From Inquilinus sp. Marseille-Q2685 (GTDB lineage Bacteria > Pseudomonadota > Alphaproteobacteria > DSM-16000 > Inquilinaceae), in assembly GCF_916619195.1 (NCBI RefSeq), contig NZ_CAKAKL010000003.1, positions 310,001 to 374,000 of the forward strand: a stretch of 64,000 bases of DNA, read 5' to 3'. Shown piece after piece: positions 49,966 through 64,000 of this stretch; the first letter of the stretch is position 1; each line of letters opens with the position of its first letter. A program made the position numbers and the translations under genes. Below the pieces are notes generated by a model, which saw only the letters and a list, made by a program, of their open reading frames with translations, did no database searches and was not told the DNA's origin.

Positions 49966-50095
49966 GCCCTAACCAGCTCTGTTCGATGGGGCGTCCTTCG
50001 GTGAAGGCGGTCGCGCTCACCGGGACGGCTTGCCGAGCACGAGCTTCGGGAGGGCCTCGGCCGCAATAACCGGGGCGCAAACAGGCCATCAGCCG

Positions 50096-50656
50096 ATGAC
50101 CGCCGACAACACAGCGACACCGGAGCCATCAGCCCCCGATGGCGGGACTCGCAGGGACTTTCTTTACCTGACCGCGGGTGCCGTGGCCGCCCTGGGAACG
50201 GTGTCGGCGGTCTGGCCGCTGATCGACAGCATGAATCCCGCGGCGGATGTGACGGCCCTGTCGAGCATCGACGTCGATCTCGAGCCCGTTGCCGTCGGTC
50301 AGCGGATCACCCTCAAATGGAGGGGCCGCCCAGTGTTCATTGCGCACCGCACGGAGGCCGAAATCGCCCGTGCCCGGGCGGACGATGCGAACCCCGGCCT
50401 CATCGATCCGGAGCCGGATGCCGCGCGCGTGCAGCGGCCGGAATGGCTTGTGATCGTCGGCGTGTGCACGCATCTCGGCTGCATCCCGCTCGGCCAGCGG
50501 CCGGTGGATCCGCGCAGTCCCTTCGGCGGCTGGTTCTGCCCGTGCCATGGGTCGATGTATGACACGTCCGGGCGCGTGAGGCGGGGGCCGGCGCCGCGCA
50601 ATCTCGAGGTTCCGCGTTATCGATTCCTCGACGGTACCCGGATTCAGATCGGATGA
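50096..50656 (+). CDS. petA: Rieske iron-sulfur subunit of cytochrome bc1 (orphan copy)
   Basis: Ubiquinol-cytochrome c reductase Fe-S protein, 186 aa. N-terminal Tat motif and anchor ([17 protein letters not shown], about 14-40), hinge, and a Rieske domain with both cluster motifs: CTHLGC and CPCHGS, then the family C-terminus [15 protein letters not shown]. It takes electrons from quinol in complex III. No petB or petC follows. It stands behind a CueR-type promoter, divergent from copA2, which implies a copper-induced replacement subunit. An in-frame TTG at 50030 is a less likely start. Confidence 0.92.
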
Positions 50657-52394: not shown

Positions 52395-54002
52395 ATGCCG
52401 GAATATCAGCTTCGCATGATGGGCGCGGCCGCGTGCGCAGCCGACACCCTGACGAATCTGAAGCTGCCGGTCGATCCGGAGGGCGCCCTCGCCGAGCTCG
52501 GAGAAGGGCTGGAATTGACCGTCGCGCCCGCCTCGCCGGCCGCGGAGGGCGATGAAGGGGAGGACGAGGCCGAGCGGCAGGTGGTCGATCACAGCAACCG
52601 GCTTCAGGGCGTGCTCGCGAAGATGTTCCAGGCCTTCGAGGGGACACCCGAGACCTGGATCGGGAACGTCGTCCATATCGGCGGCCGGCACGGGCTGCAT
52701 GCGATGTGGGTGCTCCTCGCCCGCGAACTCGCCGCCAAGGGCATGCTGCTGTCGATGGACAAGTACTCGGAGGAGGGAAAGGCCGCGCTGGCCGGAAGCC
52801 TGATGGGCCTGACGGCGCTCGGGAACATTCTCGCCCTGGCCTATACCCGGAAGACCGGGACCAGCACCCGGGATTCGGACATCGGCTTGACGGCGAACTT
52901 CGCCCTGATGGTCGCCGGCACTGCCGTCGCCGGGGCGACGGGCGTTCTCGCCCCCATGGCGCCGATCGCCGCCAAGGCGTTGCTGACGGGCGCGGTGCGC
53001 GACGGGGTCTCGACCATGATCGGCCTCGACAACAACCAGGATGGCGTCATGGCGCCGTCATGGCTGTCCATGACCGCAGATTCGGTCCTGTATGCCGGAA
53101 CCCAGATCCTGCCGACCGCTCTGTTCTACTCGGGGTTCTTCCTGTCCGGGAACGCCGAGGCCTCAAAGGATCTCACCTGGGGGCAGAGCGCCTGGGAAGC
53201 AACCAAGTTCGCGGGCCTCTACGCCCTTCCCGAATTCGGCAACGGCCTGAGCTTTCCGGCGACGACGGTGCTTTGGGGCAAGCTGGTGGAGGGGGCGACC
53301 CCGATGCAGCTCAAGGATCTCAAGCTGCGCATCAAGCTGAAGTTTCCCACCCTGCACGACCTGATGATGCAGGCGGGCGGCATCATGCTGGCCCGTGTCG
53401 TCTACATCCAGCTCGTCAATGCCGGCCTGCTGGCCGTCAACAAGAACCTGATCACCCCGGAAAGGCTGGGGGACGCCGGCTACAACGTTGCATCGAACGC
53501 GATGAATTGTCTGCTCTGCTTCGCCCTGTACTATCCCTGGATCCTGGCCTGCACCACCAAGGCACGCCCGGCCCCCGAGGAGCGCGGGGCCACCGACGGG
53601 GAGGCAGGCGACGGCCTCCCGTGCTCATGCCGCCGGGCGACGATCGGGAGGAGGGCGAGGAGGCGGAGCAGGAAGAGGACGGGCATAGGCGCCGCGGCTC
53701 GGGCGAGGCTGCCGCCTAGCCAACCTCCGGTTGGAAACAGATGTACAGCCGTCGACGCTCCCCTTCGAGGAGCGTCGCCTTCTTGGCGGGATGCCGGAGG
53801 CCGCGAGGGTGAGCACGCACGCAAGCGGCCGGACGATCCGGGCATCATCTGCCGCAGGGTCGCGGATCCGGCGTCGCGGGCAGGCCGAGATGCGAGCATG
53901 ACTTCTCCTCGATCGACCGCCGACGCGACTGCGCACGGGTCCGCGTGTCTCCCGCGGGCCCGAAAGCCGGTGCGTACGGTCCGGGGCGAGCCCGCTAGCT
54001 GA
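52395..54002 (+). CDS. Unrecognised hydrophobic protein, probable frameshift near 53620
   Basis: Acidic N-terminus followed by long hydrophobic, Gly/Ala-rich helical segments (about residues 100-390), e.g. LTANFALMVAGTAVAGATG, suggesting membrane insertion; no family is recognised. From about 53620 the open frame turns into Arg-rich sequence using AGG codons, while the next frame reads as a natural charged tail (DDREEGEEAEQEEDG) stopping at 53719. One missing base near 53618-53622 would join them, so the real protein is probably about 441 aa, ending at 53719 just before a hairpin. The ATG at 52395 is chosen over a TTG at 52287. Confidence 0.55.
   Translation: MPEYQLRMMGAAACAADTLTNLKLPVDPEGALAELGEGLELTVAPASPAAEGDEGEDEAERQVVDHSNRLQGVLAKMFQAFEGTPETWIGNVVHIGGRHGLHAMWVLLARELAAKGMLLSMDKYSEEGKAALAGSLMGLTALGNILALAYTRKTGTSTRDSDIGLTANFALMVAGTAVAGATGVLAPMAPIAAKALLTGAVRDGVSTMIGLDNNQDGVMAPSWLSMTADSVLYAGTQILPTALFYSGFFLSGNAEASKDLTWGQSAWEATKFAGLYALPEFGNGLSFPATTVLWGKLVEGATPMQLKDLKLRIKLKFPTLHDLMMQAGGIMLARVVYIQLVNAGLLAVNKNLITPERLGDAGYNVASNAMNCLLCFALYYPWILACTTKARPAPEERGATDGEAGDGLPCSCRRATIGRRARRRSRKRTGIGAAARARLPPSQPPVGNRCTAVDAPLRGASPSWRDAGGREGEHARKRPDDPGIICRRVADPASRAGRDASMTSPRSTADATAHGSACLPRARKPVRTVRGEPAS
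53753..53777 (+). terminator. Hairpin after unrecognised protein gene
   Basis: CGACGCTCC (53753-53761) pairs with GGAGCGTCG (53769-53777) around a seven-base loop, followed by a short T-rich CTTCTT. It lies 34 bp after the stop codon at 53719 in the alternative frame, which supports that frame as the true end of the gene. Confidence 0.6.
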
Positions 54003-54915
54003 CCTTGGTGAAGCGGCCGAGGCTGCGGACGATGTTGTCGAGCAGACCGCCGCCCTCCGTTGCCGCGGCCTCGACCTGTCTCTGCACCGGCTGCCGGGCG
54101 AATCTCGGATCGACCAGGCGCCGGCGATGCTCGCGGATGGCGGCGCTGACGGCGAGGCGGAAGACGTTCGGGCTGAGGGGCTTGATGGCGAAGCGGTAGA
54201 TCTGCCCCTGGTTGATCAGCTTGACGATGGTGTCGGCGTCGGGGGCGGAGGTCGTGGCCACCACGGTGATGGAGGGGTCGATCTTGGCGACCCGCGCCAG
54301 CATGTCGGTGACGTCGACGCCGTCGACCTCGCTGTTGGTGACGATGACGCCGATCTCCTCCTGCTCCAGGATCTCCAGCGCCTCCTCCATGGTGGAGGCG
54401 GTCAGGATGCTGTAGTCGCGGGTGAACATCTCGAGCATTTCCTGGCGGTCGGCCGCCACGCCGTCGATCGCCAGCAGCTTGGTGGCGACGCCGAGCGGCG
54501 GCGTCAGCACCGCCTCGACCTCCTCGGCCGCGGCCGGGGCGGCGCGCGCGATGTCGACCGCCTCGGCGATGACCTGACGCAGCTCATCCTGGTTCCAGGG
54601 CTTGTTGAGGAAACGGAACACCTCGCCTTCATTGACCGCGCCGATGATGGCGACCAGGTCGCTGTAGCCGGTCAGCAGGATCCGCACCGTGTTGGGCCAG
54701 CGCTTGCAGACCTGCGACAGCAACTCGATGCCGACCATCTCCGGCATCCGCTGGTCGGAGACGATCACGTCGATCCGGTGGGCCTCCAGGATCGCCAAGG
54801 CCTCCCGCCCGCTGGTCGCGGTGTAGACGTCGTAGCTGGACCGGAACATCACCTTGAGCAGCTTCACGATGCGCTCTTCGTCGTCCACGAAGAGCAGGCT
54901 GGGCCTGTCAGTCAT
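53995..54915 (-). CDS. Response regulator with REC and pseudo-REC domains
   Basis: 306-aa two-component protein without DNA-binding output. REC1 (about 5-125): acidic pair Asp11-Asp12, phospho-acceptor Asp54 in IVSDQRMPEM, Lys105 in FLNKPW. REC2 (about 145-265) keeps the fold and Lys245 (FAIKPLSP), but the acceptor position is Asn194 (VIVTNSEVDG), so it cannot be phosphorylated in the normal way. REC1 resembles RpfG/HupR-type receivers. Start 54915 has AAGGAGAG upstream. Last gene of the leftward peroxidase-kinase-regulator set. Confidence 0.88.
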   Translation of the reverse strand: MTDRPSLLFVDDEERIVKLLKVMFRSSYDVYTATSGREALAILEAHRIDVIVSDQRMPEMVGIELLSQVCKRWPNTVRILLTGYSDLVAIIGAVNEGEVFRFLNKPWNQDELRQVIAEAVDIARAAPAAAEEVEAVLTPPLGVATKLLAIDGVAADRQEMLEMFTRDYSILTASTMEEALEILEQEEIGVIVTNSEVDGVDVTDMLARVAKIDPSITVVATTSAPDADTIVKLINQGQIYRFAIKPLSPNVFRLAVSAAIREHRRRLVDPRFARQPVQRQVEAAATEGGGLLDNIVRSLGRFTKVS

Positions 54916-54964
54916 CTCGCTCTCCTTCGTACCTCGAAGCGTCATGGGAGGGTGGCGGAACCGT

Positions 54965-56674
54965 CTATGCAGCCGCCTGCTCGAGCCGATGCTCGGCGTC
55001 GGCCTTGGCGCGGTGCGGCAGGATGATGGTGAAGGTGGTGCCGACGCCGACCTCGGACCGGGCGGAGATGGTGCCGCCATGGGTCTGGATGATGCGGTAG
55101 CAGATCGACAGCCCCATGCCGGTGCCCTTGCCGACATCCTTGGTGGTGAAGAACGGGTCGAAGATCCTGGGCAGCACGTCCGGGGGAATGCCGGTGCCGC
55201 TGTCCTCGATCTCGATCCGGATCGAGTCCTCGGATTCCGCCCGCGTGCGCAGGGTCAGCTTGCCTCGTTTGGGCTGGTCGGCCATGGCATGGGCGGCGTT
55301 GTTGATCAGGTTCAGGAACACCTGCTTCAGCTGCGTCGGCGATGCATGGATCCTGGGGATCTTGCCGTAGTCCTTGACCGTGTCCGCGATGTACTTGACC
55401 TCGGACCGCGCGATCAGGGCGGCGCTGTCCAGGGCCTCTTCTATGTCGACATATTCAAGGCGGCCTTTGTCGAGGCGCGAGAAGTTCTTCATCGTGATGA
55501 TCAGGTTGGTGATCTCCTCAAGGCCGTGCAGCCCCTCGTCGATCAGCATGTTGAGCTCGCCGATCCGGTCGTCGGGCTGCCCGTCCGCCGCGGCCGGCCG
55601 CAACTCCGCAACGGTGCCGGGGGCGGCCGTGCCGACCGGATGCATCTCCGCCATCTGGTCCCGGATCAGGCAGAACACGGCCTTCACATAGGCCAGCGGC
55701 GTGTTGATCTCGTGGGTGATGCCCGCCACCATCTGGCCCATGGCGGACAGCTTCGACGACTGGATCAGCTGCGACTGCGCGTCCTCATTGGCCTGCTGCA
55801 GCGCCGAATTGTCCTGGTTGAGCCGCCGGTAGTGCCGGCGTAGCAGATAGCCGGCCCAGGCCGTCGCGGCGATGAGCAGGAAAGTGCACGCCAGCACCAG
55901 GTCGCGCAGCAGCGACCGGTCGCGGTTCTGATCGGCTTCCAGGGCCTGCGCATCGCGCTGCAACCGATCGATGGCCTGGGCGGTCGGCACGGCCGTGAGG
56001 TCGACGATCAGCCTGGTGCCGAGCTGCTTCTGGCGGAGGATGACCGCCATATGGGCCAGCAGCGTCTCTGCCTTCGAAGCTGCCTCGGGCGATGCCCGGC
56101 CGGCGGCCTCGCGCAGGGCCGTCATCTGGGTGTCGATGGCCTGCCGCAGCTGCTCGCTGGGGGTGACGATGTAGCTGGCCATATCGATGACGATGCGGGT
56201 CAGCAGGTCGGCGATCGGCGGATTGGATTGAGGCCTGCTGCCCTCGAGCTCGGCGAACAGGTCGGCCGCGGCGATCGGCAACAGGCGTGAGGAGTTGCTG
56301 ATGATCGAATACTGCGCCTTGATCCGTTCGACGATGCGGATCTTGTCGTCCATGGCCGAGCGATAGGCGGCCAGCGAGGCCGACAGATCGTGGCCCCACG
56401 CCGGGGCGCCCGCGGCCAGCGTCTCGATCGCTCGATAGCGCTCGGCCAGCTTGCCGACGGGGGCGGCCACGGAGTCGTAATTGGGGTTCAGGCCCAGCTC
56501 CAGGCTCAGGACGTCGGCGCTCCACAGGGCGTCGATCTGCTTCATCTCGGCGAGGCTGGCCAGCAGCTCCGACGGCCGGGTGTCCGGCGCGCGCAGCATG
56601 GCCAGAAGGGTCGCCAGTACGGCGAGAAGAACGGCGATGAAGACACTGCAGACGATCCTGGATGTGACGATCAT
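54965..56674 (-). CDS. Membrane sensor histidine kinase
   Basis: 569-aa histidine kinase. Two helices (about 8-27 and 258-278) bound a large, mostly helical periplasmic sensor of about 230 residues. A coiled coil leads to the HisKA site [13 protein letters not shown] (His321), then HATPase motifs [21 protein letters not shown] and [12 protein letters not shown]. The dimer region has a long insertion after the H box. Partner of the REC-REC protein, which starts 49 bp downstream; the diheme protein ends 49 bp upstream. The helical sensor may respond to that redox partner. Confidence 0.9.
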
Positions 56675-56723
56675 GACGTGATCTCCGTCACCGGCCGGTG
56701 GCTCTTCGATTGCGGTGGGCAGT

Positions 56724-57776
56724 TCACTGCGAAGGGCGGGCGTCGAGGGGACGGCCCTTGTATTCGCCGGTCAGGGTTCGCAGGAACGCCACGATCAGCG
56801 CGTTGTCGCGGGACGGGATCTGGCGCCCGAGCTGGTATTTCGCCATGGCGTCGACGGCTTCGGTCAGCGTCGCGGCTGAGCCGTCGTTGAAGTAGGGCGC
56901 CGTGAGCGCGACGTTGCGCAGGCTGGGGACCCGGAAGACGAACTTGTCCTCTTCGGCCTTGGTGGTGTTGTAGAGGCCGAAATCGGGATCTGCGGCGGCG
57001 CCGTGCGACCGGAAGTAGTCCCCGGGCGTCCCCAGCACGCCGAACACCTGGAACATGTTGCCGCCGACATTCACCCCCTGGTGGCAGGAGGCGCAGCCAT
57101 AGGTCTTGAACAGGCTGTAGCCCTCGAGCTCGTCGGGGCTGAGGGCTGCCGCGTCGCCGCGCAGGAATTTGTCGAACCGCGCGTTCGGCGTGGTCAGGGA
57201 ACGTTCGTAGACGACGAGCGCGTCGGTGATGGTCTGCGGCTGCATCCCTTCCGGATAGAGGCCGGCGAAAGCCTGGCTCAGCGCCTGGTCCTGCGACAGC
57301 TTGCCGATGATGGCCGGCCAGGTTTCGCCCATCACGGTCGGGTCGTGGATCGCCGCCTCGATCTGCTGTTCCGCCGACGCGAAGCGACCGTCCCACATCA
57401 GGCGGAAATTCAGTGTCGAGTTGAAGATCGTCAGCGTGTTCCGCTTCCCGGCCTTGCCGCCCAGCCCGCGCGACTTGGGCAGCCCGTCGTCGCCGCCATT
57501 GCCGAGATCGTGACAGGACGAGCAGGCGTTCTCATTGTTCCTGGACAGCCGGACGTCGTGGAACAGGGCCTCGCCCAGATCGACCTTCCGCTGATCCAGC
57601 TCCAGCTGGAACGGGATCGGCGCGATCGGCTCCGGCGTCTGCGCCACGACCAGGGCGGGACCCAGAAACGCCAGGGCCAGGGCGGGCATGGCGGCGATCA
57701 GGAGCGGCCGCCTGGTGGCCGGGGCCGAAGCCTGTCCTGTCGCACGTAGACGCCGAGGGTCGAGATCGCGCTTCAT
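56724..57776 (-). CDS. Diheme cytochrome c peroxidase/MauG-family protein
   Basis: 350-aa periplasmic diheme protein. Signal segment about 24-45 (LLIAAMPALALAFLGP); heme motifs CSSCH (Cys85-Cys88-His89) and CASCH (Cys228-Cys231-His232). Other CCP/MauG features are present: FHDVRLSRN before heme 1, WDGRFASAEQQ and a final RVPSLRNVALTAPYFNDG. It may reduce H2O2 or modify a protein partner. First gene of the leftward set with the kinase and regulator; divergent from the FHA-polyferredoxin gene. The ATG at 57776 is preferred over 57812. Confidence 0.9.
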   Translation of the reverse strand: MKRDLDPRRLRATGQASAPATRRPLLIAAMPALALAFLGPALVVAQTPEPIAPIPFQLELDQRKVDLGEALFHDVRLSRNNENACSSCHDLGNGGDDGLPKSRGLGGKAGKRNTLTIFNSTLNFRLMWDGRFASAEQQIEAAIHDPTVMGETWPAIIGKLSQDQALSQAFAGLYPEGMQPQTITDALVVYERSLTTPNARFDKFLRGDAAALSPDELEGYSLFKTYGCASCHQGVNVGGNMFQVFGVLGTPGDYFRSHGAAADPDFGLYNTTKAEEDKFVFRVPSLRNVALTAPYFNDGSAATLTEAVDAMAKYQLGRQIPSRDNALIVAFLRTLTGEYKGRPLDARPSQ

Positions 57777-58000
57777 CTTCTGCCTGCCCAGATGAATTCG
57801 TGGCCACGACATTGGGGCGTGGCGAGAATTATTGTCTGCCGGAAGAAGATCTCCGCACCATGCGATCTCGTTATGGCCGTATCATCGCGGCGATGGGCGG
57901 AGAGCCTCCGCTGTTGCGGTACCGTCAGGACCCGCGGGCCTCCGGAACCAGAGTGCTGACACGCACTCCCGAGCGTCGCGCACCACTGGCCAGGACATGA

Positions 58001-61000
58001 ATGTCCCGGCCAGTCGTTGCCCAGCCGCAACTGCAGGGGACGCCTGACATGCTCGCCCGGACCGCCGAACGCAAGATGCTCGCCGTACGGGGCGTGCTGC
58101 TGACCGGATGGGTCGGGCTCATCGCCTCACTGTTCTGGGACCCCGTCTCGACGGGCTGGACCAGCCAGGCCGGCGGTGTGGTCGCGGTCCAGGACCGCAT
58201 GCTGGCCAGCGAGCCCTATCAGGTCGGGGCCCGGGTGTTCTGGACCATGGTCGTGCCGGTCATTCCGCTGTTCCTGATGGTGTTCGGTCACGAGGCATGG
58301 CGCCGTATCTGCCCGCTGTCGCTGATGTCCCAGCTGCCGCGCTATCTCGGCTGGCAGCGGCAGCGCACGGTGGTGCGGCGCCGGACCGGCAAGCTCGAGC
58401 GCACCCTGGCCCTGATCCCCCGCGGCGGCTGGCTCGAACGCAACGCGTGGTACGTCCAGTTCGGCATCCTGTTCGCCGGGCTGAATGCGCGGATCCTGTT
58501 CATCAACAGCGATCGCACCGCACTGGCGGCGGCGCTGATCCTGGTCCTGGCCGCGGCGTTCCTCGTCGGCTTTCTCTGGGGCGGCAAGTCCTGGTGCAAC
58601 TACTTCTGCCCGGCGAACATCGTCCAGAAGATCTACACCGAGCCGCGCGGGCTTTTGGAAAGCGCACCGCATCTGCAGCGCCCGGCCGTGCCGCAGTCGA
58701 TGTGCCGCAGCAGCTCGCCGGACGGCGACCGCAGCGCCTGCGTCGGCTGCACCGCCAACTGCGGCGACATCGACCTCGAGCAATCCTACTGGAGTTCGAT
58801 CCTCGATCCGGCCCGGCGTCGCATCTACTACATGTTCAACGGGCTGATCATCGGCTTCTACTGGTATTTCTACCTCTATGCCGGAAGCTGGGACTACTAT
58901 CTCTCCGGCGTCTGGAGCCATGAGTCCGGGGCGCTCGGCCGGCTTCTCGATCCGGGCCTGTATCTCGCCGGCCAGGCGATACCGATCCCCAAGCTCGCCG
59001 CCGTGCCGCTGGTCATGGGGGCCGCTGTCCTGGCTTCGCTGGCCCTGGGCACCGGCCTGGAGCGGGCCTATCGCTGGGCGCGGAGCCGCGCCGGCAAGCC
59101 GATCCCCGAGGTCGAGGTCGTCAACCATTGCCTGAGCGTCAGCGCCTATCTGTCGATCAACATCTTCTATCTGCATGGCGGCCGGCCCAGCCTGCTGATG
59201 CTGCCCTCGGCCGCGATCCACTTCGTCGATATCCTGATCGTCTCGCTGAGCACCATGTGGCTGTGGCAGGCGCTGAACCGCTCGGCCTTCAGGTATGAGC
59301 GCGAGAAGATCGCCTCGAGCCTGCTCGATCAGCTGAAGAAGCTGAAGGTCGATGTCAGCCGGTACCTGGACGGCCGGTCAATCGGCGAGCTCAAGCCCGA
59401 CGAGGTCTACGTCCTGGCCAAGGTGTTGCCGGAGCTGCCGCACGACCAGAAGCTCAAGGCCTACCGTAACCTGCTGGACGATGCCATCAGCACGGGCAAG
59501 ACCGGGGCCGTGTCCTCGGCCGAGCTGCTGCATGACGTGCGGCAGCAGATGGAGATCAGCGACGAAGACCACCTGCGGCTGCTGGAGGAGCCGGAGATCT
59601 CCGAGGCAGCGGTTCTCGATGCCGTCCGCACCACCACCACCAAGGAGCGGATGGCCTGCGTCGCCAACTACCATCAGATCATCGGCCGGTATCTCATCGC
59701 CCATGTCGCGTCCGGCCGGATGCTCGACACGATCCGGACCGACCCGGGCATGCAGGCGACCATCCGGACCCTCCGCACCAGCCTGCAGATCACCGATGCC
59801 GAGCACCGGAGCGTGATGGCGGAATTCACCGCCCAGGGTGGCATGCTGGCCAGGCAGATGGACTCGATCCTCGACGGCTTGGCGAAGCTGCAGGGGGCGT
59901 ATTTCTGCCTGCAGAGCTCCAGCCTGCCCGATCGCTTCGCCCGGACGCTGAACGAGCTGCTGCTGGCAGCCGGGTCGGACCGTTTCACGGCGATGCATGA
60001 AGCCGCCCTGTCCTGCCTGCACGCCTTCGGCGACGGAAAGATCGCCCGCTGGTACGCGCAGGACCTGGCTGCGTTGGCGGGCGACGGCGTGATCGACGCG
60101 CTGTCCCGCCCGGTCGCGGGGCAGGAGGAGGTCCGCTGGAGCGAGGCGCTCGGCGAGACCATCACGGCCATCCTGGAGGGCGCGCCCGACACCGACGACA
60201 AGCGCCCCGCGGAGCTGCCGCGCCGGTCGTTCCGCGAGGTCATCGCTGCCGGCCTCGACCGCGCCGCCAGCCTGGACCTGCTGCTGGAGCACGGGTCACC
60301 GGTCGCCCGCGCCCTGACGCTGACAGCGTTCAGCTATGTCGACGACGCCCTGTCGCGCGCCGCGGCGCGCCGGCTTGCGGACAGTGGGGAGGGCGACGGC
60401 CACTGGCTGCTGCGGCAGACGGTGGACATCCTGAGTGGCGCCGCGGTGGCGGAGGCTGGTGCGCCCGAGCCGGTGATCCACGCCGTGATCGTGCTGCCCG
60501 ACGGCACGCAGAGCCGCTCGACGCATGCGCAGCCGGTGATCACCGTCGGCCGAGGCCCCGGCAACGACATCACCATCGCCAGCCCGCTGGTGTGGCCATA
60601 CCACATGGCGCTGTCCTTGGCCCATGGCGAAGTCCGTCTCCTGCGGCTCGACGACGCCGGGATCCTCATCGACGGCGTTGCCTGCGACGGTGAAGCAACC
60701 ACCCTTCGCCGCGACGCCCTGCTGACCTTCGGGCCGGGCGCCGGGCCCACCCTCCGGATCGACTGGCAGGACGCCACCGAAAGCCGCTGCCTGCGGTCCT
60801 TCGACCCGGTGTTGCGGCTGGTGGCGCTGGCCCGCAGCCCGGCGCTGCGGCCGCTGGGCCTCTCCGCCCTCGCCGAGACCGTCCGCGACTGCCGGGTCGG
60901 ACGTTTCCGGGCCGGCGACGAACTGCCGGCGGCCGGGCCGGGCGAGATGCGCTTCCTCCAGTTCGGATCAGCCCGCACATCCGCGCGCGCCTTCGAGGCC

Positions 61001-61165
61001 GGAGATCTCATGGATCCGGGCGATGGCGACGGCGCGCTCGAGATCGTCAGCGACTTCGCGGTCGTCATGACCATCCCGCGGCCCGACCCGGCTGCGACGG
61101 CGCCGGAACCGACGGGGCATCCCGAGGCGGCGGATCTCGCGCCGCCCCTCCGCTACGCCAGCTAA
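58001..61165 (+). CDS. Membrane polyferredoxin (NapH/CcoG-like) fused to helical and FHA domains
   Basis: 1054-aa fusion. The N-terminal about 420 residues form several membrane helices with Fe-S motifs of the NapH/NosR/CcoG type: RRICPLSLM, then WCNYFCPANIVQKIYTEP, and ACVGCTANCGDIDLEQ, enough for two clusters. A long soluble helical region follows (about 440-800; unassigned), then a forkhead-associated domain (about 827-920) with VGRGPGNDITI and YHMALSL, which bind phosphothreonine. The gene is 33 bp upstream of a reductase. It probably links membrane electron flow to Ser/Thr phosphorylation. A second ATG at 58049, with AGGGGAC upstream, is an alternative start. Confidence 0.82.
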   Translation: MSRPVVAQPQLQGTPDMLARTAERKMLAVRGVLLTGWVGLIASLFWDPVSTGWTSQAGGVVAVQDRMLASEPYQVGARVFWTMVVPVIPLFLMVFGHEAWRRICPLSLMSQLPRYLGWQRQRTVVRRRTGKLERTLALIPRGGWLERNAWYVQFGILFAGLNARILFINSDRTALAAALILVLAAAFLVGFLWGGKSWCNYFCPANIVQKIYTEPRGLLESAPHLQRPAVPQSMCRSSSPDGDRSACVGCTANCGDIDLEQSYWSSILDPARRRIYYMFNGLIIGFYWYFYLYAGSWDYYLSGVWSHESGALGRLLDPGLYLAGQAIPIPKLAAVPLVMGAAVLASLALGTGLERAYRWARSRAGKPIPEVEVVNHCLSVSAYLSINIFYLHGGRPSLLMLPSAAIHFVDILIVSLSTMWLWQALNRSAFRYEREKIASSLLDQLKKLKVDVSRYLDGRSIGELKPDEVYVLAKVLPELPHDQKLKAYRNLLDDAISTGKTGAVSSAELLHDVRQQMEISDEDHLRLLEEPEISEAAVLDAVRTTTTKERMACVANYHQIIGRYLIAHVASGRMLDTIRTDPGMQATIRTLRTSLQITDAEHRSVMAEFTAQGGMLARQMDSILDGLAKLQGAYFCLQSSSLPDRFARTLNELLLAAGSDRFTAMHEAALSCLHAFGDGKIARWYAQDLAALAGDGVIDALSRPVAGQEEVRWSEALGETITAILEGAPDTDDKRPAELPRRSFREVIAAGLDRAASLDLLLEHGSPVARALTLTAFSYVDDALSRAAARRLADSGEGDGHWLLRQTVDILSGAAVAEAGAPEPVIHAVIVLPDGTQSRSTHAQPVITVGRGPGNDITIASPLVWPYHMALSLAHGEVRLLRLDDAGILIDGVACDGEATTLRRDALLTFGPGAGPTLRIDWQDATESRCLRSFDPVLRLVALARSPALRPLGLSALAETVRDCRVGRFRAGDELPAAGPGEMRFLQFGSARTSARAFEAGDLMDPGDGDGALEIVSDFAVVMTIPRPDPAATAPEPTGHPEAADLAPPLRYAS

Positions 61166-61198
61166 CGACATGCGAACCAAGACAGGGACATCACGCGC

Positions 61199-62884
61199 AT
61201 GGACACGCTGACCGAAACTATGACAGCTGAAGCACAGGGGACCGATCTGGCGGTTCTCGTGTTCCTGGTCTTCGTCTTCGTCTCCGACAGCGAGAAGGAC
61301 ATCACACCGCAGGAGGTGCAGCGTTTCCAGATGCTGATGAACGACCTGCACTGGACCGACAACGAGGACATGTGCCGGGCGCTGACGACGCTGCGGTTCA
61401 ACTATACGGCGACCTGGGCCGACTACGAGGCCGGGACGTTGGCGGCGGACCGGGATGCGATCGCCGGCCAGCTGGTCCGGTTCGACCGGGCGTTCGGCAG
61501 CGAACGCGCGGACGCGCTGAAGGCATCGTTGGCCGACCTGGTGCAGCGCATCAGCCGGGGACCGTCACGATCAGGCGTCAGATTCGCCCTCGGGGAGTCG
61601 AAGGGACGGGCCAGCGCCCGGCAGGAGCTCGAAGCGCTGCTGGCGCCTCCGATATCCGCCGCAGCGACGGCCGCGTCGCGCGACCCCGAGATCGAACCGA
61701 AGCCGGAGCCGGCTCTCACTGCAACTCCAGGGACCGAGTCTTGGCCCGCGGCGCGGATGGCGATCGGCGACGCGCCGGTGTGGCAGGGTGGCCAGCTCAG
61801 GGTGCGTTGCATCTCCTGCGTCGACGAGACGCGGGATACCAGGACCTTCACCCTGGCCGCCGACCCGCCCCGCCTTTTCAGCTACAAGCCCGGCCAGTTC
61901 GTCACGCTGGAGCTGCCGATCGACGGCCGCATCCTGCGCCGCAGCTACACGATCTCGTCCTCGCCGTCGCGGCCCTACACCCTGTCGATCACGGTCAAGC
62001 GCGTGCCCAAGGGCTGGGTCTCGAACTGGCTGCACGACACCATGACGCCGGGGTTCGAGCTCGATCTGATCGGCCCGCATGGCCATTTCACCTGCGTCGA
62101 CCGGCCCGCATCCAAGCTGCTGTTCATCGCCGGCGGCAGCGGCATCACGCCGGCGATGTCGATGCTCCGGTGGCTCGCCGACACCGGCTGCGCCGCCGAC
62201 ATCGTGCTGATCAACAACGTCCGGACGCCCGACGACGTGATCTTCGGACAGGAGCTGCAGCATCTCAGCTCGCGCCTGGGCGATGCCCTGCGCCTCGCGG
62301 TCGTGCCGTCGCGGGTGTCCCCGGGGCAGTCCTGGAACGGCCCGACCGGCCATTTCAGCGAGGCGCTGCTGCGGCTGCTGGCGCCGGACGTGCTGGAGCG
62401 CGAGGTTTTCGTCTGCGGCCCCTCCGGCTATATGGCGACGATCAGGATGCTTCTGCAGGCACGAGGCTTCCCCATGGCCCGCTATCATGAGGAGAGCTTC
62501 GGCGGCGCACCGGCCTCTGCGCCCGCGCTGCCGGCACCCCAGGTGTCGCGGGCGCCCCAGGCGCCGCCGGTTCCTGGAGTGACCGCCGCGACCGCACCGG
62601 CCTCGATCGCCGCCGCATCCGCCGAGGCCAGGCTGGTCTTCCGCAACAGCAACCGGACGATCGACTGCGGCGCGGACGAATCCATCCTCGACGCCGCCGA
62701 CCGCCATGCAGTCCCGGTCCCGAGCTCCTGCCGCTCCGGCGTCTGCGGCACCTGCCGGATGCGGAAGCTGAGCGGTACCGTCAGCATGGAGGGCCAGGCA
62801 GCCCTGTCCGATCCCGAGATCGCGGAGGGCTATTTCCTGGCCTGCATCGGCCAGGCCCGGGGGACCGTCGTCATCGACGCCTGA
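61199..62884 (+). CDS. TerB-like/FAD-NAD(P)H reductase/2Fe-2S ferredoxin fusion
   Basis: 561-aa electron-transfer protein. N-terminal about 110 residues are helical and TerB-like (VFLVFVFVSDSEKDITPQEV). A flavin reductase follows: FAD motif RRSYTISSS, NAD-binding FIAGGSGITPAMSML and VFVCGPSGYM. After a Pro/Ala linker comes a plant-type ferredoxin with Cys511, Cys516, Cys519 (CRSGVCGTC) and Cys549. The order FNR-ferredoxin resembles Hcr and similar reductases. It should pass NAD(P)H electrons to the membrane polyferredoxin encoded just upstream. Confidence 0.88.
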   Translation: MDTLTETMTAEAQGTDLAVLVFLVFVFVSDSEKDITPQEVQRFQMLMNDLHWTDNEDMCRALTTLRFNYTATWADYEAGTLAADRDAIAGQLVRFDRAFGSERADALKASLADLVQRISRGPSRSGVRFALGESKGRASARQELEALLAPPISAAATAASRDPEIEPKPEPALTATPGTESWPAARMAIGDAPVWQGGQLRVRCISCVDETRDTRTFTLAADPPRLFSYKPGQFVTLELPIDGRILRRSYTISSSPSRPYTLSITVKRVPKGWVSNWLHDTMTPGFELDLIGPHGHFTCVDRPASKLLFIAGGSGITPAMSMLRWLADTGCAADIVLINNVRTPDDVIFGQELQHLSSRLGDALRLAVVPSRVSPGQSWNGPTGHFSEALLRLLAPDVLEREVFVCGPSGYMATIRMLLQARGFPMARYHEESFGGAPASAPALPAPQVSRAPQAPPVPGVTAATAPASIAAASAEARLVFRNSNRTIDCGADESILDAADRHAVPVPSSCRSGVCGTCRMRKLSGTVSMEGQAALSDPEIAEGYFLACIGQARGTVVIDA

Positions 62885-62888
62885 AGGC

Positions 62889-62922
62889 GGTAAGGCGACG
62901 GCCGATCGGCCGTCGCCTTACC
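62889..62922. terminator. Perfect palindromic bidirectional terminator
   Basis: A perfect palindrome of 34 bases: arms GGTAAGGCGACGGCC and GGCCGTCGCCTTACC around GATC. It separates the rightward reductase (ends 62884) from the leftward SUMF1-like gene, whose TAA stop (62920-62918) lies inside the stem. It should stop transcription from both sides. Confidence 0.8.
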
Positions 62923-64000
62923 GGGTCAGGTCGTCGATCAGGCTCTGCGGGTCGGCGGCGCCGTCGTCGCGCATCCGCCGCATGTGCCGGACGAAGAGGT
63001 CGACATAGGGCAACAGCGCGTCGGAGCCGCGGGCGTGCAACTCGGCCTTCAGCGCCGGCAGCTGGGCGGCGATCACCTCGTCCGAATAGTCGCTGCTGGT
63101 GCTGAGAACGGTGTCGAGATAGGTCTCGCGGGAGGTCTTGACGGTGTCCTCAAGCCCGTCCCGCTGGTCCTCCATCTCTCCGATCCGCGCGGTGGCGTCG
63201 GCGATGGCCTTGCGGATCTGGGTGTCCTGGCGCCGCGCCTGCAATTGCCGCAGCGCCGGCCGGGCCACGCCGTCGATCGCCCTCTGCACCGCCAGCAGCC
63301 GCTGGTGGTCGATGCGCAGCTTGTTGCCCAGCAGGGCGCCGACATTGATCAGCAGCCGGACGGTGCGGTCGCGCGCATCGTTGCGGTCGACCAGCGCCTC
63401 ACGGATCGACCGGCCGGCGTCGCGCAGCTGGATGCGGACCGTCTCGTCGCCCGCCTGGTCGGCGAGACGGTCGAGGGTGCCGAGCGCGGCGTCCTCACGG
63501 CGTGCGGTGGACGGCGCCTCGCCGGAGGACGGCATCGCCTCCCAGGCCTTCTCGATCTCGGTCAGCTTCTCGGGCGAGGTCACCACCGGAGCCGCCACCA
63601 CCAGGCGGAATCCCAGCTGCCGGCTGGCCGTGGCCGTGGCGGCGCCGGCCGTGTAGTAGGGCATCTCGACCCGCATGCCGGACCGGATCTGGCTGAGCGG
63701 CGTGTTGTAGTCGCCGCCGCGTGCGATGAAGCCGCCGGCCTGGCCGTGCAGCCGGCCGCGCCGGTTCAGCCGGAAGGATTCGAGCATCATCTCCGAGGCG
63801 TTGCCCAGGATGTCGTGGAGGCCGAGCGGGTTGGGCTTGAGCAGCCCGATCGGGTGCATCCGGCCTTCGGCTGAGCCGCTGCCCTGGTACCAGACATAGG
63901 CAGCGGCGCCCTCCGGCATCGGGAATCGTGGCGCCAGAAAATTCTCGGAGGACACGGCCATGCCGCCGCGGGCCGCATATTCCCATTCGTCTTCGGTCGG
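62918..64000 (-). CDS. Formylglycine-generating (SUMF1)-like protein with helical tail (5' end outside window)
   Basis: Only the C-terminal about 360 residues are in the window; the gene enters from the right edge. It begins within an FGE-sulfatase fold (TEDEWEYAARGG, then GLHDILGNASEMMLESF and the final ARGGDYNTP and GFRLVVA), followed by about 200 residues of alpha helix. The catalytic Cys positions of true FGE are not seen in this part, so it is probably a non-enzymatic SUMF1 domain as found with Ser/Thr kinase and FHA systems. It converges on the reductase. Confidence 0.82.
   Translation of the reverse strand, partial: PTEDEWEYAARGGMAVSSENFLAPRFPMPEGAAAYVWYQGSGSAEGRMHPIGLLKPNPLGLHDILGNASEMMLESFRLNRRGRLHGQAGGFIARGGDYNTPLSQIRSGMRVEMPYYTAGAATATASRQLGFRLVVAAPVVTSPEKLTEIEKAWEAMPSSGEAPSTARREDAALGTLDRLADQAGDETVRIQLRDAGRSIREALVDRNDARDRTVRLLINVGALLGNKLRIDHQRLLAVQRAIDGVARPALRQLQARRQDTQIRKAIADATARIGEMEDQRDGLEDTVKTSRETYLDTVLSTSSDYSDEVIAAQLPALKAELHARGSDALLPYVDLFVRHMRRMRDDGAADPQSLIDDLTR

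Follow-up and report, generated by a model that had tools for sequence, protein, structure and literature searches.

The question raised by this stretch of Inquilinus sp. DNA is whether six adjacent genes at its right end, which combine electron transfer with signalling, work as one system. The window, that is, the whole stretch of 64,000 nucleotides that was analysed, corresponds to contig C3:310001-374000 of a 7.3-Mb alphaproteobacterial genome. A preliminary description had listed a diheme peroxidase, a histidine kinase, a receiver protein, an FHA-carrying polyferredoxin, a reductase fusion and a SUMF1-like protein, and had treated them as a single block. All six genes are present as listed; however, a cyclic-nucleotide-binding-like domain at the C terminus of the polyferredoxin, after the FHA domain, had been overlooked. 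Our analysis supports one conserved unit of five redox and signalling genes, referred to below as the cassette. The sixth gene is part of a separate, known control operon of a type VI secretion system (T6SS).

The cassette consists of two divergent sets of genes. On the minus strand, leftwards from 57812, lie the genes for a diheme protein of the cytochrome c peroxidase (CCP)/MauG family, a histidine kinase with a DAHL domain and a response regulator with a REC and a pseudo-REC domain; on the plus strand, a gene for a 1054-aa membrane 4Fe-4S protein is followed by that for a 561-aa reductase. The order and orientation of these five genes are kept in 12 other alphaproteobacterial loci, which together with the window make up the 13 cassettes counted below, and the set is thus far from a chance association. 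The 12 loci lie in a congener (deposited as Mycobacterium sp. KBS0706), in Arboricoccus, Poseidonocella and two Rhizobiales isolates, in Rhizobium, Agrobacterium, Neorhizobium and Mesorhizobium, and on plasmids of R. etli 8C-3 and A. fabrum. Both plasmid cassettes are surrounded by conjugation and replication genes, with no SUMF1 or T6SS genes nearby. The cassette is rare, being found in 2/6 genomes of the genus and in 1/298 genomes sampled in the Rhizobiaceae-type family, and this rarity together with the plasmid copies points to spread by horizontal transfer. No description of the five-gene combination was found in the literature searched, in agreement with the preliminary description, which had not recognised its block of six genes as a described system.

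Further evidence came from the surroundings of DAHL kinases in general. DAHL is uncommon in the class, with any match in only 8/240 genomes, and a diheme CCP gene adjoined the kinase in all six loci fetched from this sample. In a phylum-wide sample, DAHL matches were found in 62/398 genomes, from which 40 loci were fetched, best scores first. Taking the class and phylum samples together, and counting in the pair of the window and that of one further cassette, the diheme CCP gene was directly adjacent to the DAHL kinase gene in 46/48 loci, usually with the genes overlapping by a few bases (stop/start). In the Rhizobiaceae-type family this was the case in 4/8 loci, so that in the Pseudomonadota overall 50 of the 56 DAHL kinase loci examined have an adjacent diheme CCP gene. 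The six exceptions include L255 and L258, which are VirA-like kinases by NCBIfam (E = 0), and L257, presumably also VirA, as its DAHL score and frame length are the same as those of L258. The pairing is well supported, and its near constancy across the Pseudomonadota is a new observation; no description of it was found in the open-licence literature on histidine kinases together with DAHL, MauG or cytochrome c peroxidase, which is weak evidence of absence. The periplasmic region of VirA takes its sugar signal from a separate periplasmic protein, ChvE (PMC9149312). Because VirA is served in this way, we infer by analogy that the diheme protein may be the partner of the DAHL domain in the kinases other than VirA.

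Two other loci are of interest in this respect. In one (L185, 5845-9510) the DAHL kinase gene has no CCP gene beside it, and after it comes a gene for a Ser/Thr kinase that is fused to two receiver domains. The other lies to the right of the window (L097, 9708-13276; C3:409.7-413.3 kb) and holds a second diheme CCP gene with a hybrid DAHL histidine kinase gene and an OmpR-like regulator upstream. This second pair adjoins the pppA-like (PP2C-like) phosphatase gene of the T6SS next to the window; its CCP, which is conserved in one congener, also lacks Glu114, a residue discussed below.

The diheme protein of the cassette (56724..57812, minus strand; alternative start Met13 at 57776) is predicted to be exported. 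It belongs to the CCP_MauG family (PF03150, E 2e-48), has two CXXCH heme motifs at residues 97 and 240, and keeps the Met of the high-potential heme (Met275 region), which is M in 13/13 cassettes. The catalytic distal Glu114, however, has been replaced by V, T or A in each of the 13 cassette CCPs, whereas it is kept in 9/9 bCCP-type CCPs from the same genomes that have no DAHL neighbour and in 4/4 solved CCPs. Cleavage of H2O2 is the role proposed for the equivalent Glu (PMC10094543), and the exchange E277Q abolishes the activity of BthA (PMC6405878). Distal His71 is absent from 13/13 cassettes and from all 45 alignable DAHL-linked CCPs, though some ordinary CCPs lack it too, and Gln104 is replaced by His in several cassette CCPs. 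The loss of Glu114 falls in one supported clade of the tree (99/96; 22 rows), which comprises the CCPs of all cassettes together with eight further DAHL-linked CCPs from alphaproteobacteria, that of the second pair in this genome among them. Judged by these residues, the cassette CCP is probably no ordinary peroxidase.

The kinase gene (54965..56674, minus strand) encodes a 569-aa membrane protein with a periplasmic DAHL domain (PF19443, E 5e-40), HATPase_c and a weak HisKA match, in which the phosphoacceptor motif HEINTP places the H-box His at residue 321. The response regulator gene (53995..54915, minus strand; 306 aa; Pfam Response_reg, E 1e-32) encodes two REC domains and no output domain. 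The second REC lacks the acceptor Asp in 13/13 cassettes (N in 12, T in one). As there is no DNA-binding domain, the protein cannot itself regulate the divergent promoter.

On the other strand, the 4Fe-4S protein (58001..61165) is predicted to have about eight transmembrane helices, a helical region, an FHA domain and the cyclic-nucleotide-binding-like domain. Fer4_5 (PF12801) was matched in 19/19 sequences, which makes this a polyferredoxin of the NosR/NapH/CcoG type, and seven candidate cluster Cys residues (104, 199, 203, 235, 247, 250 and 254) are invariant across 20 aligned sequences. The FHA domain scored 18.7 bits in the protein scan, just below the Pfam cut-off, and 24.3 bits, above it, in the genome search; its beta-sandwich fold is confirmed in the structural model (residues 822-923, Z about 13). 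The domain that follows (residues 935-1033, fold Z about 11.8) appears to be a degenerate version of a cyclic-nucleotide-binding domain, with a Pfam match in relatives only (7/19) and none in the window protein itself. Both domains are listed by Foldseek and VIA-align searches with the whole model. The FHA domain had been expected to recognise phospho-threonine. Of the contact residues only the Arg remains: in 10/10 cassette FHAs, Trp or Leu replaces the Ser of SRxH, and SxNGT is missing together with its Asn. Moreover, the domain is absent from 3/13 cassettes, which makes such recognition unlikely.

The reductase (61199..62884, plus strand) combines FAD_binding_6, NAD_binding_1 and Fer2 domains with an N-terminal domain that we call TerB-like: residues 10-148 are all-helical in the model and TerB was matched in 2/18 relatives (E 0.0016). 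An alphaproteobacterial metagenome-assembled genome, SAR324 and nine cyanobacteria have the reductase and the 4Fe-4S protein as a bare pair. In the cyanobacterial pairs an FHA domain (GR motif; SRxH in most) stands at the N terminus of the reductase, where the alphaproteobacteria carry the TerB-like domain. That the bare pair travels together and that the FHA domain changes subunit between lineages is what would be seen if the two proteins acted as parts of one complex. In cyanobacteria, SAR324 and Sulfurimonas, proteins related to the 4Fe-4S protein have a C-terminal cyclic-nucleotide-binding domain. The cyanobacterial loci with FHA on the reductase are L044, L045, L050, L052, L055, L056, L058, L063 and L067; many other cyanobacterial 4Fe-4S proteins of the family have the cyclic-nucleotide-binding C terminus and no adjoining reductase gene. 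Rhizobium plasmids (for example L075, 9998-11305) encode a 435-aa version, 57% identical over the membrane part, without any C-terminal domains and without cassette partners.

The best explanation for these observations, to which we give about an even chance, is a mobile redox-signalling cassette in which the diheme protein is a co-receptor of the DAHL kinase and is coupled to a transmembrane electron line. With its peroxidase acid-base residue lost, the diheme protein would be a periplasmic redox or ligand sensor and would act on the DAHL domain much as sugar-loaded ChvE does on VirA. The kinase would then phosphorylate the receiver protein, whose output would probably be by protein contact. 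Electrons would pass from NAD(P)H through FAD and 2Fe-2S to the membrane 4Fe-4S clusters and on to the periplasmic side, where the most likely acceptor would be the diheme protein; the kinase could thereby read the balance of cellular reductant and periplasmic oxidant. More broadly, we tentatively suggest that the DAHL-kinase class may use a diheme receptor of the peroxidase family, and that in one alphaproteobacterial branch this would be a pseudo-peroxidase, with the redox state of its hemes set by a dedicated transmembrane iron-sulphur line fed by NAD(P)H, so that the sensor would weigh reductant in the cytoplasm against oxidant in the periplasm.

Several findings weigh against this explanation. 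The 4Fe-4S/reductase pair occurs without the CCP, and CCP/DAHL pairs occur without the 4Fe-4S protein and the reductase, so that solely the conservation of the cassette links its two halves. Confidence in the structural model of the 4Fe-4S protein is middling (pLDDT 75, pTM 0.51). Glu114 is kept in 31/45 DAHL-linked rows, among them most gammaproteobacterial ones, with the alignment of this column uncertain for some short-looped gammaproteobacterial rows, and in those proteins catalysis may matter to sensing. On this count the idea that all DAHL-linked CCPs are dead peroxidases was rejected; the loss marks one alphaproteobacterial clade.

The separate occurrence of the halves and their divergent arrangement would also fit a looser connection, in which they are joined by regulation only: the CCP, kinase and receiver would be a sensor of a periplasmic oxidant or ligand, and the regulated output would be the 4Fe-4S protein and the reductase, which would reduce another substrate or the quinone pool. 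In line with this, oxygenase-type reductases are the nearest match to the reductase (GbcB model, E 1e-114, below that model's cut-off). Such an arrangement is rather unlikely, given that the receiver protein could not itself control the divergent promoter and that the cassette has no other conserved substrate enzyme. Improbable, too, is a complete periplasmic H2O2 reductase, with electrons from NAD(P)H feeding a working diheme peroxidase under the control of the two-component system. The CCP fold, both heme motifs and the Met of the high-potential heme would suit this enzyme, but the consistent loss of Glu114 and His71, and the exchange of Gln104 in several cassettes, would not.

The SUMF1-like gene (62918..64000, minus strand) is convergent with the reductase gene and crosses the right edge of the window, which holds its 3' two-thirds. 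It encodes an FGE-sulfatase-domain protein of 539 aa in full and closes a compact operon for a Ser/Thr kinase, a VWA-like protein (MIDAS sequence by eye; no Pfam match), an ABC ATPase, an FtsX-type permease and the FGE/SUMF1-like protein. The Ser/Thr kinase that had been expected just past the right edge was indeed found about 4.5 kb beyond it (L004, 18486-19877), but inside this operon. Further to the right follow T6SS genes for VgrG and Fha (by Pfam) and for ClpV, TssF, TssC, TssA and TssK (by eye). Its gene content and order correspond to those of the TagT-TagS-TagR/PpkA threonine phosphorylation pathway, whose TagR is located in the periplasm and whose TagS and TagT make up an ABC transporter (PMC6657622). 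The SUMF1-like gene thus stands in the place of tagR. By domain and gene order, the SUMF1-like protein would be a TagR-like protein, and the likely partners of the Ser/Thr kinase are this protein and the T6SS Fha protein at C3:399 kb; the polyferredoxin is not clearly one. SUMF1-like homologues are present in three congeners without the cassette, and no SUMF1 homologue was found in the examined flanks of 11/12 outside cassette loci. One system of six genes was therefore rejected, as the SUMF1-like gene travels with the T6SS operon. The genome has a second threonine-phosphorylation operon, on C2 and without redox genes, in a second T6SS (L098/L099; C2:1.275-1.306 Mb) with its own kinase, VWA-like protein, ABC pair and SUMF1-like protein (59-75% identical).

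The T6SS could nevertheless be what the cassette serves, as an accessory that gates secretion by redox state. In two lineages the cassette stands beside or within T6SS clusters: it adjoins the T6SS island here and in the congener, and in Poseidonocella (L008) it is embedded between vgrG and tagF-tssM. The TssC proteins of Arboricoccus and Poseidonocella are 72-78% identical to that of the T6SS next to the window, and the second CCP-DAHL pair adjoins the pppA-like gene of the same T6SS. However, a TssC match was absent from 3/9 cassette genomes searched, which excludes a T6SS as a requirement for the cassette, the plasmid cassettes sit among conjugation and replication genes, and two genomes that have no DAHL (G204 and G146) contain related T6SSs (TssC 62-67% identical). 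We consider such gating to be of low probability. That the diheme protein is a MauG-like enzyme, responsible for oxidative maturation of the DAHL domain or of some other protein in the periplasm, is very improbable: it shares the CCP_MauG superfamily with MauG, which acts on a protein (PMC6405878), but its high-potential heme has Met, in contrast to the Tyr of MauG and BthA, the Glu is lost, and no candidate substrate besides the kinase is conserved.

Two neighbouring features were also noted. Inside the T6SS cluster of Poseidonocella, the space between the cassette and tagF-tssM holds a sensor-like gene (Tll0287-like; CXXCH, HAMP) and a gene with a caspase domain (L008, 15136-19392). Within the window, positions 50030-50656 encode a Rieske-type iron-sulphur protein, recognised by eye from its CTHLGC and CPCHG motifs, which is likely to be a subunit of cytochrome bc1.

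The signals of sensor kinases with all-helical periplasmic domains are usually unknown, and the pairing of DAHL with CCP names a concrete candidate receptor. It also offers a testable class of signals (peroxide, other oxidants, heme ligands) for many uncharacterised DAHL kinases. Compact and mobile, the cassette offers an example of a retired peroxidase that appears to have a role in signalling, with its likely electron supply encoded alongside.

Compared with known systems, the cassette resembles VirA-ChvE of Agrobacterium, a two-component sensor with a periplasmic partner, in having a periplasmic DAHL domain in a membrane histidine kinase, with the signal of VirA being delivered by a separate periplasmic protein. 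However, the protein presumed to take the part of ChvE is a diheme cytochrome from the adjoining gene and not a sugar-binding protein, and the receiver has no DNA-binding domain. With the bCCP/MauG/BthA family the diheme protein shares the two CXXCH motifs and, with bCCP in particular, a Met-ligated high-potential heme; it differs in the loss of distal His71 and catalytic Glu114 and in the tie of its gene to a histidine kinase. The Fer4_5 domain, the CxxxCP motif and the presumed passage of electrons across the membrane are those of NapH/CcoG/NosR-type proteins, to which the cassette protein adds cytoplasmic helical, FHA and cyclic-nucleotide-binding-like domains and a NAD(P)H reductase gene of its own. 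Like GbcB and BenC, the reductase has FAD, NAD and 2Fe-2S domains in a single chain, whereas its N-terminal TerB-like domain (FHA in cyanobacteria) and its partner gene for a membrane 4Fe-4S protein set it apart from these oxygenase-type enzymes. The SUMF1-like gene and its operon correspond in content and order to the TagR-TagS-TagT-PpkA-PppA-Fha pathway, except that the kinase and the VWA-like part are separate genes here, and this pathway is a neighbour of the cassette.

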